64,000 nucleotides of DNA, from NCBI RefSeq assembly GCF_014651895.1, contig NZ_BMXT01000001.1, forward strand, positions 992,001 through 1,056,000, given 5' to 3'. A model generated the notes under the pieces. The model did no database searches. It was given only the letters and a program-made list of their open reading frames with translations, and was not told the origin of the DNA. Numbering within the stretch: the stretch's first letter is position 1; each line of letters starts with the position of its first letter. The position numbers were made by a program, and so were the translations under genes. This document shows positions 1-3,018 of this stretch, piece by piece. This stretch comes from Rhodanobacter panaciterrae. GTDB lineage: Bacteria; Pseudomonadota; Gammaproteobacteria; Xanthomonadales; Rhodanobacteraceae.

Positions 1-2
1 CT

Positions 3-437
3 TATCAGGCCACGCCGGGCTCCGCGGCTGCGGCCAAGGCGTGGGTCGACAGCATGGCCACGCAGCAGCAGATCTGGACGCAGGCCACCACGGCGGCACA
101 GGCCTCGGGCAATACCGCCACGTTGAGCCTGATGGCGTCTGCGCTCAACGAGATGTTCGATATCACCACCACGCGACTGGCGGCCACGCGCGACCATCCG
201 CCGGCCGTGATCGACCTGATGCTTTTTCTGCTTGCGCTGATGTCGGCCCTGCTGGCCGGTTATGGCATGGCGGAGGGCGAGCGGGTGCCCTGGCTGCAGG
301 TGATGGTGTTTGCGGTGGCGCTGACGGTGACGGTATTCGTCATCCGTGATCTCGAGTACCCGCGTCAGGGCCTGGTTCGGGTGGATGCCGCCGATCAGCT
401 GCTCATCGAGACGCTGCAGGGCATGACGCCAAGGTAA
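3..437 (+). CDS. DUF4239-like membrane protein, 3' part only
   Basis: The reading frame is open back to the left edge of the window, so this is the C-terminal part of a longer protein. Two hydrophobic stretches (about residues 70-90 and 97-113 of the visible part) look like membrane helices. They are followed by DLEYPRQGLVRVDAADQ, which resembles the C-terminal signature of DUF4239/bestrophin-like bacterial membrane proteins. The molecular function of that family is not established. An internal ATG at position 54 is not the likely start, because the frame continues upstream without a stop. Family assignment is from the C-terminal motif only. Confidence 0.6.
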   Translation, partial: YQATPGSAAAAKAWVDSMATQQQIWTQATTAAQASGNTATLSLMASALNEMFDITTTRLAATRDHPPAVIDLMLFLLALMSALLAGYGMAEGERVPWLQVMVFAVALTVTVFVIRDLEYPRQGLVRVDAADQLLIETLQGMTPR

Positions 438-551
438 AAACTCTCTGCGTTGCATGTGGGGTCGAATGCTTTGCTGCGCCGGTCCATGGTGTCGGGCAGC
501 AAGGTATCGCCCTGGCCGGGTGATCCGGCCTGTGATCTGTTTCAGGTCGGC

Positions 552-579
552 TTGACATGTAACGAACGTTACATGTAAC
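552..579 (+). promoter_or_regulatory. Putative sigma-70 promoter of the TetR gene
   Basis: A perfect -35 box TTGACA at 552-557 is followed after 16 bases by TGTAAC at 574-579, a 4/6 match to the -10 consensus. Transcription would begin at about 586-589, at or next to the ATG at 589, so the message would have essentially no leader. The -10 box lies inside the palindrome at 557-590. Confidence 0.55.
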
Positions 580-590
580 GTTCGTTACAT
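557..590. repeat. Perfect 34-bp palindrome, probable TetR operator
   Basis: Positions 557-590 equal their own reverse complement over all 34 bases. The arms contain TAACGAACGTTA-type half-sites, so the site itself looks like two smaller dyads placed side by side. It covers the proposed -10 box and the first two bases of the tetR start codon. Inverted repeats of this kind next to a tetR gene are the usual autoregulatory operators of the family. Binding by this regulator is inferred. Confidence 0.75.
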
Positions 591-1191
591 GCAGACACGA
601 AAAGAAATCCTCACCGACGAGCTCGTCGACTACCTGCTCGAACATGGCCTGTCGGATCTCTCGCTGAGGCCGTTGGCCGATGCGCTGGGCACCAGCGCAC
701 GCCTGCTCATCTATCACTTCGAATCAAAGGAAGGCCTGCTGACCGAAGTACTGGACAGCATGCAGACGCGTCTGCGGCAGTCCTTTGGCAGCCTGGTCGA
801 GCGGCGGGCAGGGCAGTCGGAGCGACCGCTGAAAATGTTCTGGGACTGGGCGATCACGGACGAAAACTATCCGTACTTCAAGCTGCTCTACGAGCTGCAG
901 ATCCTCGCCGTGCAGAATCCCGCCGTCTACGGGTCATACCTGCAGCGCAATGCCTCGAACTGGTCGGAGCTGATCGCGACGGCGCTGCCGGAAGCGGAAC
1001 GGACTCCGGCCATGGTTACCTTGCTGGGTGCGGTGTTCGACGGACTGTTTCTGGAGTTGATGAGCACCGGCGACAGGAAACGGACCACCCAGGCTGTCCT
1101 GCAATTCATCCAGCTGGTCGACGAGGCTCGCGCAGCACGCCCGGCTTCCAAGAAGAAAACCGCGAAAGCATCGAGTACGAGGCGAGGCTGA
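589..1191 (+). CDS. TetR/AcrR family transcriptional regulator
   Basis: A 200-residue protein, normal TetR length. The N-terminal helix-turn-helix (about residues 8-48) reads TRKEIL...LSLRPLADALGTS...IYHFESKEGLL, with the family's typical recognition helix and F-x-SKE-x-L ending. The rest is the all-helical ligand-binding domain, whose ligand cannot be predicted. The C-terminus is rich in Lys/Ala/Ser. The ATG at 589 is the only start that gives a normal TetR N-terminus. It has no Shine-Dalgarno sequence because the palindrome occupies that space, so translation is probably leaderless. The stop lies 4 bases before the CPBP protease gene, so the two are probably cotranscribed and autorepressed. 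Confidence 0.9.
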   Translation: MQTRKEILTDELVDYLLEHGLSDLSLRPLADALGTSARLLIYHFESKEGLLTEVLDSMQTRLRQSFGSLVERRAGQSERPLKMFWDWAITDENYPYFKLLYELQILAVQNPAVYGSYLQRNASNWSELIATALPEAERTPAMVTLLGAVFDGLFLELMSTGDRKRTTQAVLQFIQLVDEARAARPASKKKTAKASSTRRG

Positions 1192-1195
1192 TTTC

Positions 1196-1864
1196 ATGTC
1201 GACGACTGCTGCACAAATGATGAGCCGGCAGAGGAAGCCGTGGCTGCTCGGCATCGGAGGATTGCTGCTGGCACTCGGCGGCATCAGCCTGCCGTTTGGA
1301 ACGTGGGATCACGCGTTTGCCAGCGTCGGTCATATGGCGGCCAATGAGCTGGTCTACTGGGGTCTGGTCGCGGCGATCCTGCTGTATGTCGTGCTGATCG
1401 AGCGTCGTCCGCTGACCTCCATCGGACTGCGGAAGCCGAGTGGCAAGGACATCCTCGCGGCGCTGGCGACTGGCATCCTGATGGTTGCCGTGCTGGGGGT
1501 GATGTATCTCGTCGTGTTCCCGGCGCTGCACTGGGACGAGACGCAACAGCTGCAGACCCTGACGGCGGTGCCGTTCTGGCTGAAATTCATTTCGGTCGTG
1601 CGTGCAGCGGTATCCGAAGAAATCCTGTTTCGCGGTTATGCGCTCGAACGGGTACAGGAACTGACCGGCAGCCGCAGCGTGGCGGGCATATTCACCTGGG
1701 CCGTCTTCACGCTTGAGCACCTCAGTTACTGGGGTTGGCACCATCTGCTGGTCGCGGGTGCGGCCGGTGCGTTGCTCACGCTGCTCTACCTGTGGCGCCG
1801 CAACCTGTGGGCCAACATGCTGGCGCACTTCATGGTCGATGCTGTCGGCTTTCTACTGGGATAA
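1196..1864 (+). CDS. CPBP family intramembrane metalloprotease
   Basis: A 222-residue polytopic membrane protein of the CAAX protease/bacteriocin-processing (Abi) family. The three expected motifs are present: EEILFR (E141, E142, R146), an F-x3-H motif (FTLEH, H175), and a final H-x3-D motif in NMLAHFMVDA (H211). These are the putative metal and catalytic residues of intramembrane glutamate proteases related to Rce1. The gene starts 4 bases after tetR and is probably its regulatory target. Substrates are unknown; family members act in peptide processing, immunity or membrane protein turnover. Confidence 0.85.
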   Translation: MSTTAAQMMSRQRKPWLLGIGGLLLALGGISLPFGTWDHAFASVGHMAANELVYWGLVAAILLYVVLIERRPLTSIGLRKPSGKDILAALATGILMVAVLGVMYLVVFPALHWDETQQLQTLTAVPFWLKFISVVRAAVSEEILFRGYALERVQELTGSRSVAGIFTWAVFTLEHLSYWGWHHLLVAGAAGALLTLLYLWRRNLWANMLAHFMVDAVGFLLG

Positions 1865-2004
1865 GCCGGCCGCCATGATCGCGCGGTGACGCCGGCGCGC
1901 CGGGCCAGACAGTCGATAGAGCAGCAGATCGGTATGGTTCACTTGATCTTGCCAGGTAACAGCTCAATCTGATTCGCTTGTCACCTCATCAGCAGGAGCA
2001 AGCC

Positions 2005-2709
2005 ATGCCCGACCTCTCCAACTTCCCGATCGCGACGCGCTGGCCGGCGCAGCATCCGGACCGCATCCAGCTGTATTCGCTGAACACGCCGAACGGGGTG
2101 AAGGTGTCGATCATGCTGGAGGAGGCCGGACTGCCGTACGAGCCGCATCTCGTCGACATCATGAAAGACGAGAGCCACACACCGGAGTTCCTGTCGCTCA
2201 ACCCGAACGGCAAGATTCCCGCGATCATCGATCCAGATGGTCCCGGCGGCCAGCCGCTGGGCCTGTTCGAATCGGGCGCGATCCTGCTGTATCTGGCGGA
2301 CAAGACCGGCAAGTTCATTCCGGCCGATCCGGCACGACGCTGGGAAACCATCCAGTGGGTGTTTTTTCAGATGGCCTCGATCGGTCCGATGTTCGGCCAG
2401 GTCGGTTTCTTCAACAAGTTCGCCGGCAAGACATACGAGGACAAGCGGCCGCTGCAACGCTATGTCGCCGAATCGAAGCGGCTGCTTGGCGTGCTCGATA
2501 CCCGGCTGGATGGCCGCGACTGGATCATGGGTGACGACTACTCCATCGCCGACATCGCCACACTCGGCTGGGTCAACAACCTCATCACGTTCTACGAAGC
2601 GCGCGAGCTGGTCGAGTTCGACAGCTTCAGGAACGTCTCTGCATGGCTCGAACGTGGATTGGCTCGGCCTGCGGTAAAGCGCGGCCTGGAAATTCCCGGC
2701 CGAAGCTAG
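2005..2709 (+). CDS. Nu-class-type glutathione S-transferase (YghU/YfcG-like)
   Basis: A 234-residue protein with an N-terminal thioredoxin-fold domain (LYSLNTPNGVKVSIMLEEAGL, LNPNGKIPAI, ESGAILLYLA) and a C-terminal helical domain ending in a SIADI motif (DDYSIADIATLGW). TPNG at residues 28-31 is the glutathione-binding signature of the YfcG/YghU disulfide-bond reductases, which act with two glutathiones and have GSH-dependent disulfide reductase or peroxidase activity. The start at 2005 is preceded by AGGAG at 1994-1998. An upstream TTG at 1978 is open but not needed. The gene stands alone and is followed by a terminator. Confidence 0.88.
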   Translation: MPDLSNFPIATRWPAQHPDRIQLYSLNTPNGVKVSIMLEEAGLPYEPHLVDIMKDESHTPEFLSLNPNGKIPAIIDPDGPGGQPLGLFESGAILLYLADKTGKFIPADPARRWETIQWVFFQMASIGPMFGQVGFFNKFAGKTYEDKRPLQRYVAESKRLLGVLDTRLDGRDWIMGDDYSIADIATLGWVNNLITFYEARELVEFDSFRNVSAWLERGLARPAVKRGLEIPGRS

Positions 2710-2736
2710 TTCGATCGAACTGACCGAATAAAGAGG

Positions 2737-2773
2737 CCCGAGACACTCCCGTGCATGAGTGTCTCGGGTTCTT
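2737..2773 (+). terminator. Intrinsic terminator after the GST gene
   Basis: A perfect 11-bp stem, CCCGAGACACT (2737-2747) with AGTGTCTCGGG (2758-2768), has a 10-base loop and is followed by TTCTTTC. It lies 27 bases after the GST stop codon. Confidence 0.8.
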
Positions 2774-2776
2774 TCA

Positions 2777-2814
2777 AGCGATCTGCCGTCGACTCTTGTA
2801 CGAGGCAGATCGCT
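2777..2814. repeat. Second inverted repeat downstream of the terminator
   Basis: AGCGATCTGCC (2777-2787) and GGCAGATCGCT (2804-2814) are perfect 11-base inverted arms separated by 16 bases. The repeat comes only 4 bases after the T-run of the preceding terminator. No T-tract follows, so it is not an obvious second terminator. Confidence 0.6.
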
Positions 2815-3018
2815 GGCAACGACTCGGCAGGAACAGCGCCATCATCCTTTCGTTGAAATCCGGCGGTCACTCGCGCTGCTGTGAAGGTTCGTGCGAGCAC
2901 GGCCCTTGTCGCCGCACGTTGTTGCGAATGGCTGTCAATAGCCCGTCACCTCCACCCAATACCGTGAATCCGCTTTGCGTACGTATTCCCTGTGTTCGTA
3001 CCCACTCTGGAGATCACG
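2815..3018. other. Noncoding stretch before the exported-protein gene
   Basis: Together with the two hairpins before it, this forms a gap of about 309 bases without a convincing gene. The short open frames crossing it have no ribosome binding site and no recognisable protein character. A promoter for the next gene must lie here, but no near-consensus pair of boxes stands out. Confidence 0.5.

Follow-up and report, generated by a model that had tools for sequence, protein, structure and literature searches.

The locus raised the question of how a tetR-family gene of Rhodanobacter panaciterrae is expressed and controlled when its start codon lies inside a long palindrome. The window, meaning the whole 64-kb stretch of DNA that was analysed, was compared with the rest of its own genome and with orthologous loci in relatives. 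The reading we favored, to which we gave a probability of roughly 0.85 on the basis of these comparisons, was that the region at 556-591 would serve a leaderless, autorepressed tetR-CPBP operon as promoter, operator, and start site in one. The features on which this reading was built are given below in window coordinates.

552-557, plus strand: -35 element TTGACA, with TTGAC at -37/-36 from the A of the ATG in 22 of 29 orthologous regions
556-591: perfect 36-bp palindrome, composed of two abutting operator dyads and flanking CA/TG
558-573: predicted operator site 1, TGTAAC-GAAC-GTTACA, a 16-bp dyad
574-589: predicted operator site 2, TGTAAC-GTTC-GTTACA, a 16-bp dyad overlapping the -10 element and the A of the start codon
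576-581, plus strand: -10 element TAACGT (TAnnnT), inside site 2, with an 18-bp spacer from the -35 element
589, plus strand: predicted transcription start at the A of the ATG, 7 nt after the -10 element, with no Shine-Dalgarno sequence and with a spacing kept in orthologues
589-1191, plus strand: gene for a TetR-family repressor of 200 aa (TetR_N, PF00440, 34.1 bits, cut-off 24)
1184-1187, plus strand: GAGG, the likely Shine-Dalgarno sequence of the CPBP gene (anti-Shine-Dalgarno duplex energy -7.6 kcal/mol)
1196-1864, plus strand: gene for a CPBP-family (Rce1-like) intramembrane protease of 222 aa (PF02517, 60.8 bits, cut-off 22.4)

The sequence at 556-591, CATGTAACGAACGTTACATGTAACGTTCGTTACATG, is an exact palindrome with the halves CATGTAACGAACGTTACA|TGTAACGTTCGTTACATG. 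The original prediction had described an exact palindrome of 34 bp at 557-590; that stretch was indeed exact, but it is the inner 34 bp of a palindrome whose full extent is 36 bp. At the window's composition, about 3e-6 perfect 36-bp palindromes would be expected by chance in 64 kb, and the runners-up in the window measured 14 bp, leaving 556-591 the longest by far. The palindrome was perfect because the N4 spacers of its two dyads are reverse complements of each other. Its first two bases double as the final two bases of TTGACA, and its final three bases are the tetR ATG (589-591), confirming that the start codon lies within the palindrome and opens a TetR_N protein. Upstream, the tetR frame has a stop at 553-555 and no in-frame ATG, GTG, or TTG before 589. 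Among 16 aligned rows, comprising beta- and gammaproteobacteria, a Geothrix MAG, and an alphaproteobacterium, residues M1 and R4 of TetR were invariant, as were S36, R38, L39, L40, and H43 of the helix-turn-helix. The ATG of the CPBP gene follows the tetR stop after 4 nt, and the two genes are presumed to be co-transcribed. CPBP intramembrane proteases carry an E-E-x-x-x-R motif, and the translation of the second gene contains EEILFR. Farther along in the window, a GST-like gene is followed at 2737-2768 by a strong terminator-like hairpin (12 pairs, 8 of them G-C) whose T-run lies on the minus strand.

Comparison with relatives indicated which part of this arrangement has been kept. The 42 loci collected correspond to 33 genomes, as nine named loci were identical in DNA to unnamed ones, and they yielded 29 distinct upstream regions; L029 and L087, which have no site upstream, and the distant L012 and L030-L034 were left out of these counts. 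Since the orthologues are related, the 29 rows are not 29 independent tests. In all 29 regions the ATG occupied an identical position relative to the doubled site and was in frame. Mean pairwise identity was 0.84 over the 34-bp site, 0.26 over the 80 bp from -120 to -41, and 0.54 over codons 2-20. Thus, the expectation that the same palindrome would stand beside orthologous tetR-CPBP pairs was borne out for the doubled site ending in ATG and for the CPBP neighbor, but it failed for perfection, which was seen in only seven of the regions. The perfect palindrome was rejected as the conserved unit because 22 of the 29 were imperfect. What is conserved is the doubled site at a constant position relative to the ATG, and palindrome perfection is a trait of R. 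panaciterrae and some other species rather than a feature that the relatives conserve.

The fixed register extended to the promoter elements. In the seven regions without TTGAC, the -35 position read TTGCCA in one, TTG alone in five (four betas and the alpha), and was absent in one (L027). TAnnnT was found at -13 to -8 in 26 of the 29 regions, the remaining three reading TAACGA, and at the equivalent place of site 1 it was found in none. The claim that a -35/-10 pair would place the start of transcription at the ATG was upheld as far as the presence of TTGACA and the conserved spacing are concerned, but the -10 element is weak: TAACGT agrees with TATAAT only in its first two bases (T and A) and its last (T), three of six, and a consensus promoter scanner run on window positions 1-3000 listed no site, with TAACGT falling below its threshold. 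The claim that tetR has no ribosome binding site was confirmed throughout, as anti-Shine-Dalgarno duplex energies over the 20 bases before the tetR ATG ranged from +0.3 to +0.9 kcal/mol in 29 of 29 regions and disclosed no Shine-Dalgarno sequence in any of them. In the window, the value was +0.9 kcal/mol for tetR versus -7.6 kcal/mol for the CPBP gene (the latter measured in the window only); 20-mers sampled along the window had a median of -3.0 kcal/mol, and 8% of 618 were at +0.3 or weaker.

The half-sites themselves provided a further line of evidence for a promoter at this place. If the sequence were purely an operator, its four half-sites should vary alike, and they did not. Position 3 departed from T in six of 29 regions in the outer-left half-site, seven in the inner-left, and eight in the outer-right, and never in the inner-right, corresponding to 4, 5, 3, and 0 changes, in the same order, on the TetR protein tree (Fisher p 0.0017 for the constancy in the inner-right half-site, with rows treated regardless of kinship). 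The invariant T of the inner-right half-site, T576, is the first base of the -10 element, and the TA there opens it. This difference indicated a promoter overlaid on the operator. The second dyad of L084 has decayed, yet TAGCCT is read at this place, so that TAnnnT outlived the dyad there. The fixed spacing of the -35 and -10 elements to the ATG, the lack of a Shine-Dalgarno sequence, and the constant promoter T together supported a start at the AUG, and they make leaderless transcription of tetR a well-supported prediction.

The alternative that survived best, although we considered it improbable, is that tetR is read from a leadered transcript, originating at an upstream promoter or by read-through from the same-strand gene that ends at 437, and that the palindrome acts as an RNA hairpin hiding the AUG. 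Read-through RNA of 530-640 would fold into a long hairpin, at -40.5 kcal/mol compared with -25.3 for shuffled sequences (z -4.9, 0 of 200 as low), with the AUG in a stem. However, the spacing of -35, -10, and ATG has been conserved while the DNA upstream of the -35 element has diverged to 0.26 identity, and none of the 29 regions offers the Shine-Dalgarno sequence that a leadered mRNA would use. The gene upstream of tetR in the window was found beside tetR only in L008/L022, which are one genome, when 27 loci were inspected up to 1.5-2.5 kb upstream. An RNA hairpin also does not predict that the constant T should sit in the half-site that holds the -10 element.

Under the leaderless, autorepressed reading, RNA polymerase would use TTGACA and TAACGT and start within a base or two of A589, producing an mRNA that begins with AUG and from which tetR would be translated weakly without a Shine-Dalgarno sequence. 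TetR would bind the abutting dyads at 558-573 and 574-589, most likely as one dimer each, and the bound protein would cover the DNA from the edge of the -35 element through the start codon, blocking polymerase. Repressors of the TetR family bind a short dyad as dimers and are released by a ligand; here, too, a ligand would release TetR, and the CPBP gene, served by a good Shine-Dalgarno sequence of its own, would then be co-expressed. The prediction that one element is promoter, operator, and start site for both TetR and CPBP was supported by the register kept in every region and by the adjacency of the CPBP gene described below. One DNA element would therefore be under three selections, as repressor site, promoter, and start codon, with the promoter's share readable from the unvarying T of one half-site.

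The doubled site spans 32 bp, and the centers of its dyads are 16 bp, or about 1.5 helical turns, apart, so that two dimers would be placed on nearly opposite faces of the DNA. The TetR-family proteins QacR, CgmR, Ms6564, and CprB have been described as binding operators of 28, 32, 31, and 22 bp, respectively, as two dimers (PMC4150764). CgmR, as structure 2yvh is named in that source, was among the PDB sequence matches of the window TetR's helix-turn-helix. Binding of the doubled site by two dimers, one per dyad, is plausible on these grounds. Both the geometry and the existence of a two-dimer class within the TetR family agree with the idea as originally proposed. In L084 (genome G256), however, site 1 is intact and site 2 survives only as a relic, so two dimers are not obligatory in that lineage.

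Binding of the individual dyads should not require their spacers to match. Of the 29 regions, 10 had spacers that were reverse complements of each other, whereas shuffling gave a mean of 2.7 and never reached 10 in 20000 trials. The mean number of symmetric spacer positions was 2.45, against 2.08 in shuffles (149 of 20000 as high); the excess is suggestive rather than proven, as the shuffle ignores kinship. Five different symmetric spacer pairs were found, one of which is GATC and symmetric in itself. In the sister pairs L079/L081 and L070/L071, changes in both spacers were paired. It has been reported that template-switch repair in Escherichia coli makes near-palindromes perfect or brings them closer to perfection (PMC7202029). 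We tentatively considered, as a doubtful possibility, that the operator halves evolve in concert, either because template-switch repair regenerates perfect palindromes or because two dimers demand symmetry over 36 bp. If that were true, a mutation process would have contributed as much as repressor binding to the perfect palindrome at the start codon.

The same observations bear on a different proposal, that the perfect palindrome matters in itself as a cruciform, a recombination site, or an RNA hairpin. Perfection over 32 bp in seven regions belonging to lineages with different spacers, Novosphingobium included, is what such a function might produce, as is the excess of symmetric spacers on both measures. 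Yet most of the regions are imperfect, symmetric and asymmetric spacer states interchange on the tree, with at least four changes forced by well-supported branches, and the symmetric-spacer label was not clustered on it (90 of 500 shuffles as low). We regarded this proposal as very unlikely and returned to the doubled site as the conserved unit, embedded in the promoter of the predicted tetR-CPBP operon.

The distribution of the doubled site followed that of the TetR gene. The TetR was present in 27 of 233 family genomes (E up to 1e-15), and a degenerate double-site motif (two mismatches or fewer) was present in 25 of the 233, compared with none for a reversed-pattern control. All 25 motif genomes fell within the 27 TetR genomes (hypergeometric probability about 1e-31, with genomes counted regardless of kinship); the TetR genomes lacking the full motif were G256, with the relic described above, and G177 (L087), which has no site. 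Of 398 phylum genomes, the motif was found only in the own genome. When 369 class genomes were searched by profile, scoring up to eight candidates in each, an E threshold of 1e-25 yielded no TetR beyond that of the own genome. A scan of the collection gave 22 loci, of which 17 (L013-L029) were used and five (L030-L034, E 2e-7 to 5e-6) were dropped as too distant, and it added a Geothrix MAG, five Burkholderiales, and one Novosphingobium. The Geothrix row (L020) sits on an 8.4-kb contig and may be a binning error. The upstream letters of L030, L032, and L034 show another site. Related TetR proteins without such a site in the DNA examined were L087 (about 45% identical), L029 (39%), and L012 (about 31%).

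Within the own genome (3.46 Mb in 12 contigs), TGTAACGNNCGTTACA occurred with no or one mismatch only at the two sites of the 556-591 palindrome, so the operator looks local. Allowing two mismatches added four places, for a total of six versus 15 for the reversed-pattern control; as the control gave more, these four were dismissed as targets. In G303, an extra copy of the motif (C14:1650804) is followed by the first eight tetR codons and then ten N, and because of this run of N it was taken for a scaffold-gap duplicate and not for a second target.

Of the 27 family genomes with the TetR, 25 had a CPBP gene after tetR by tblastn, the exceptions being L083 and L087. In L083 (G358), tetR is followed by a 161-aa ORF without CPBP similarity. 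In L079 (G303), the CPBP match fell in two pieces, 2113-2445 and 2459-2905, which overlap in the query; a frameshift, repeat, or misassembly may account for this. Among the five Burkholderiales, tblastn detected a distant CPBP gene after tetR in four, and the ORF following tetR in L024, the remaining one, reads like a CPBP protein by eye. The next ORF in the Novosphingobium locus (L028) appeared by eye to be a different membrane protein. As L083 and L028 keep the TetR and the site without CPBP, the TetR and its site form the stable core and CPBP is the usual partner, which may have been swapped in these two. We considered it highly improbable that a different and perhaps global regulator, rather than the adjacent TetR, uses the site as its operator, since within the family the motif was found only where the TetR is present and at its start codon, the own genome has no other close match, and both loci with a different downstream gene retain the TetR and site together. 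The comparison also supplies a candidate operator consensus for an apparently uncharacterized TetR subfamily, with the CPBP protease as a concrete partner.

A similar layout was found elsewhere in the same genome. The genome contains eight TetR_N genes, and in three of them (the window tetR, L089, and, less clearly, L093) a possible start codon overlaps an inverted repeat and anti-Shine-Dalgarno pairing is weak. L089/L097 (G000:C1:945925-946503, minus strand), an unrelated TetR gene, starts inside a 27-bp inverted repeat, CTTCATGTATACACTGTATACATGAAG, with arms of 13; TTGACG lies upstream, and there is no Shine-Dalgarno sequence. The operator-like repeat there, GTATAC-N3-GTATAC, is unrelated to TGTAAC-N4-GTTACA. 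Of 15 genus genomes with the gene (45 searched), 14 have this repeat immediately in front of the ATG, with a TTG some 35 bases upstream, and the fifteenth reads N at this place. Since L089 is an unrelated TetR built alike, the layout is recurrent, and its presence in two unrelated genes suggests that autorepressors in Rhodanobacteraceae may commonly have leaderless starts embedded in their operators. At L093 (G000:C1:1095258, plus strand), a possible ATG overlaps the end of the inverted repeat ATATGATGTGTATCATAT, and anti-Shine-Dalgarno pairing there was weak.

Comparable systems have been described. In the acuR-acuI-dddL operon of Rhodobacter sphaeroides, 5' RACE placed the transcription start exactly at the AUG; acuR, first in the operon, encodes a TetR autorepressor whose operator overlaps the promoter, and operator mutations led to constitutive expression (PMC3017554). 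As described in the same account, acuR has no Shine-Dalgarno sequence, the next genes have one, and similar layouts were predicted in other proteobacteria (PMC3017554). The window locus resembles that system, as described, in having tetR first in the predicted operon, a Shine-Dalgarno sequence for the following gene but none for the regulator, and a predicted operator lying on the promoter. In contrast to the single acuR dyad, TAATAGAC-n6-GTCTATTA, two TGTAAC-N4-GTTACA dyads abut here, the second running into the start codon, and the partner is a CPBP gene, unlike the partner genes given for acuR. The window TetR was considered as an AcuR orthologue on operator type and an acuI neighbor, the two features compared, and it agreed with AcuR in neither.

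The tetR gene of Tn1721 is arranged divergently from tetA and is controlled by its own repressor. It is an earlier leaderless case (Klock and Hillen 1986, as cited in PMC3017554). Going by that citation, it is leaderless, as is predicted for the window tetR. Its operator sequence differs. Compared with the operators of QacR, CgmR, Ms6564, and CprB, the arrangement here is distinguished by two full dyads that abut, with the start codon ending the second. The operator sequences of those four repressors also differ from TGTAAC-N4-GTTACA. Outside the TetR family, the controller (C) proteins of restriction-modification systems activate as well as repress. For the window TetR, repression alone would be expected, as both sites cover the core promoter. 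The AhdI controller gene encodes a small autoregulator with distal and proximal dimer sites at its own promoter and a leaderless transcript (PMC5333194), and genes of this type, so described, are a functional parallel. A literature search on leaderless, palindromic, and two-dimer TetR regulation and on a TetR-CPBP operon returned no paper on the TetR-CPBP pair, as judged by titles and the openings of abstracts. The kind is already known, with acuR and Tn1721 tetR, as reported, being precedents for leaderless, autorepressed TetR genes; the predicted tetR-CPBP operon would be an ordinary case in kind and one unusually well supported by conservation.
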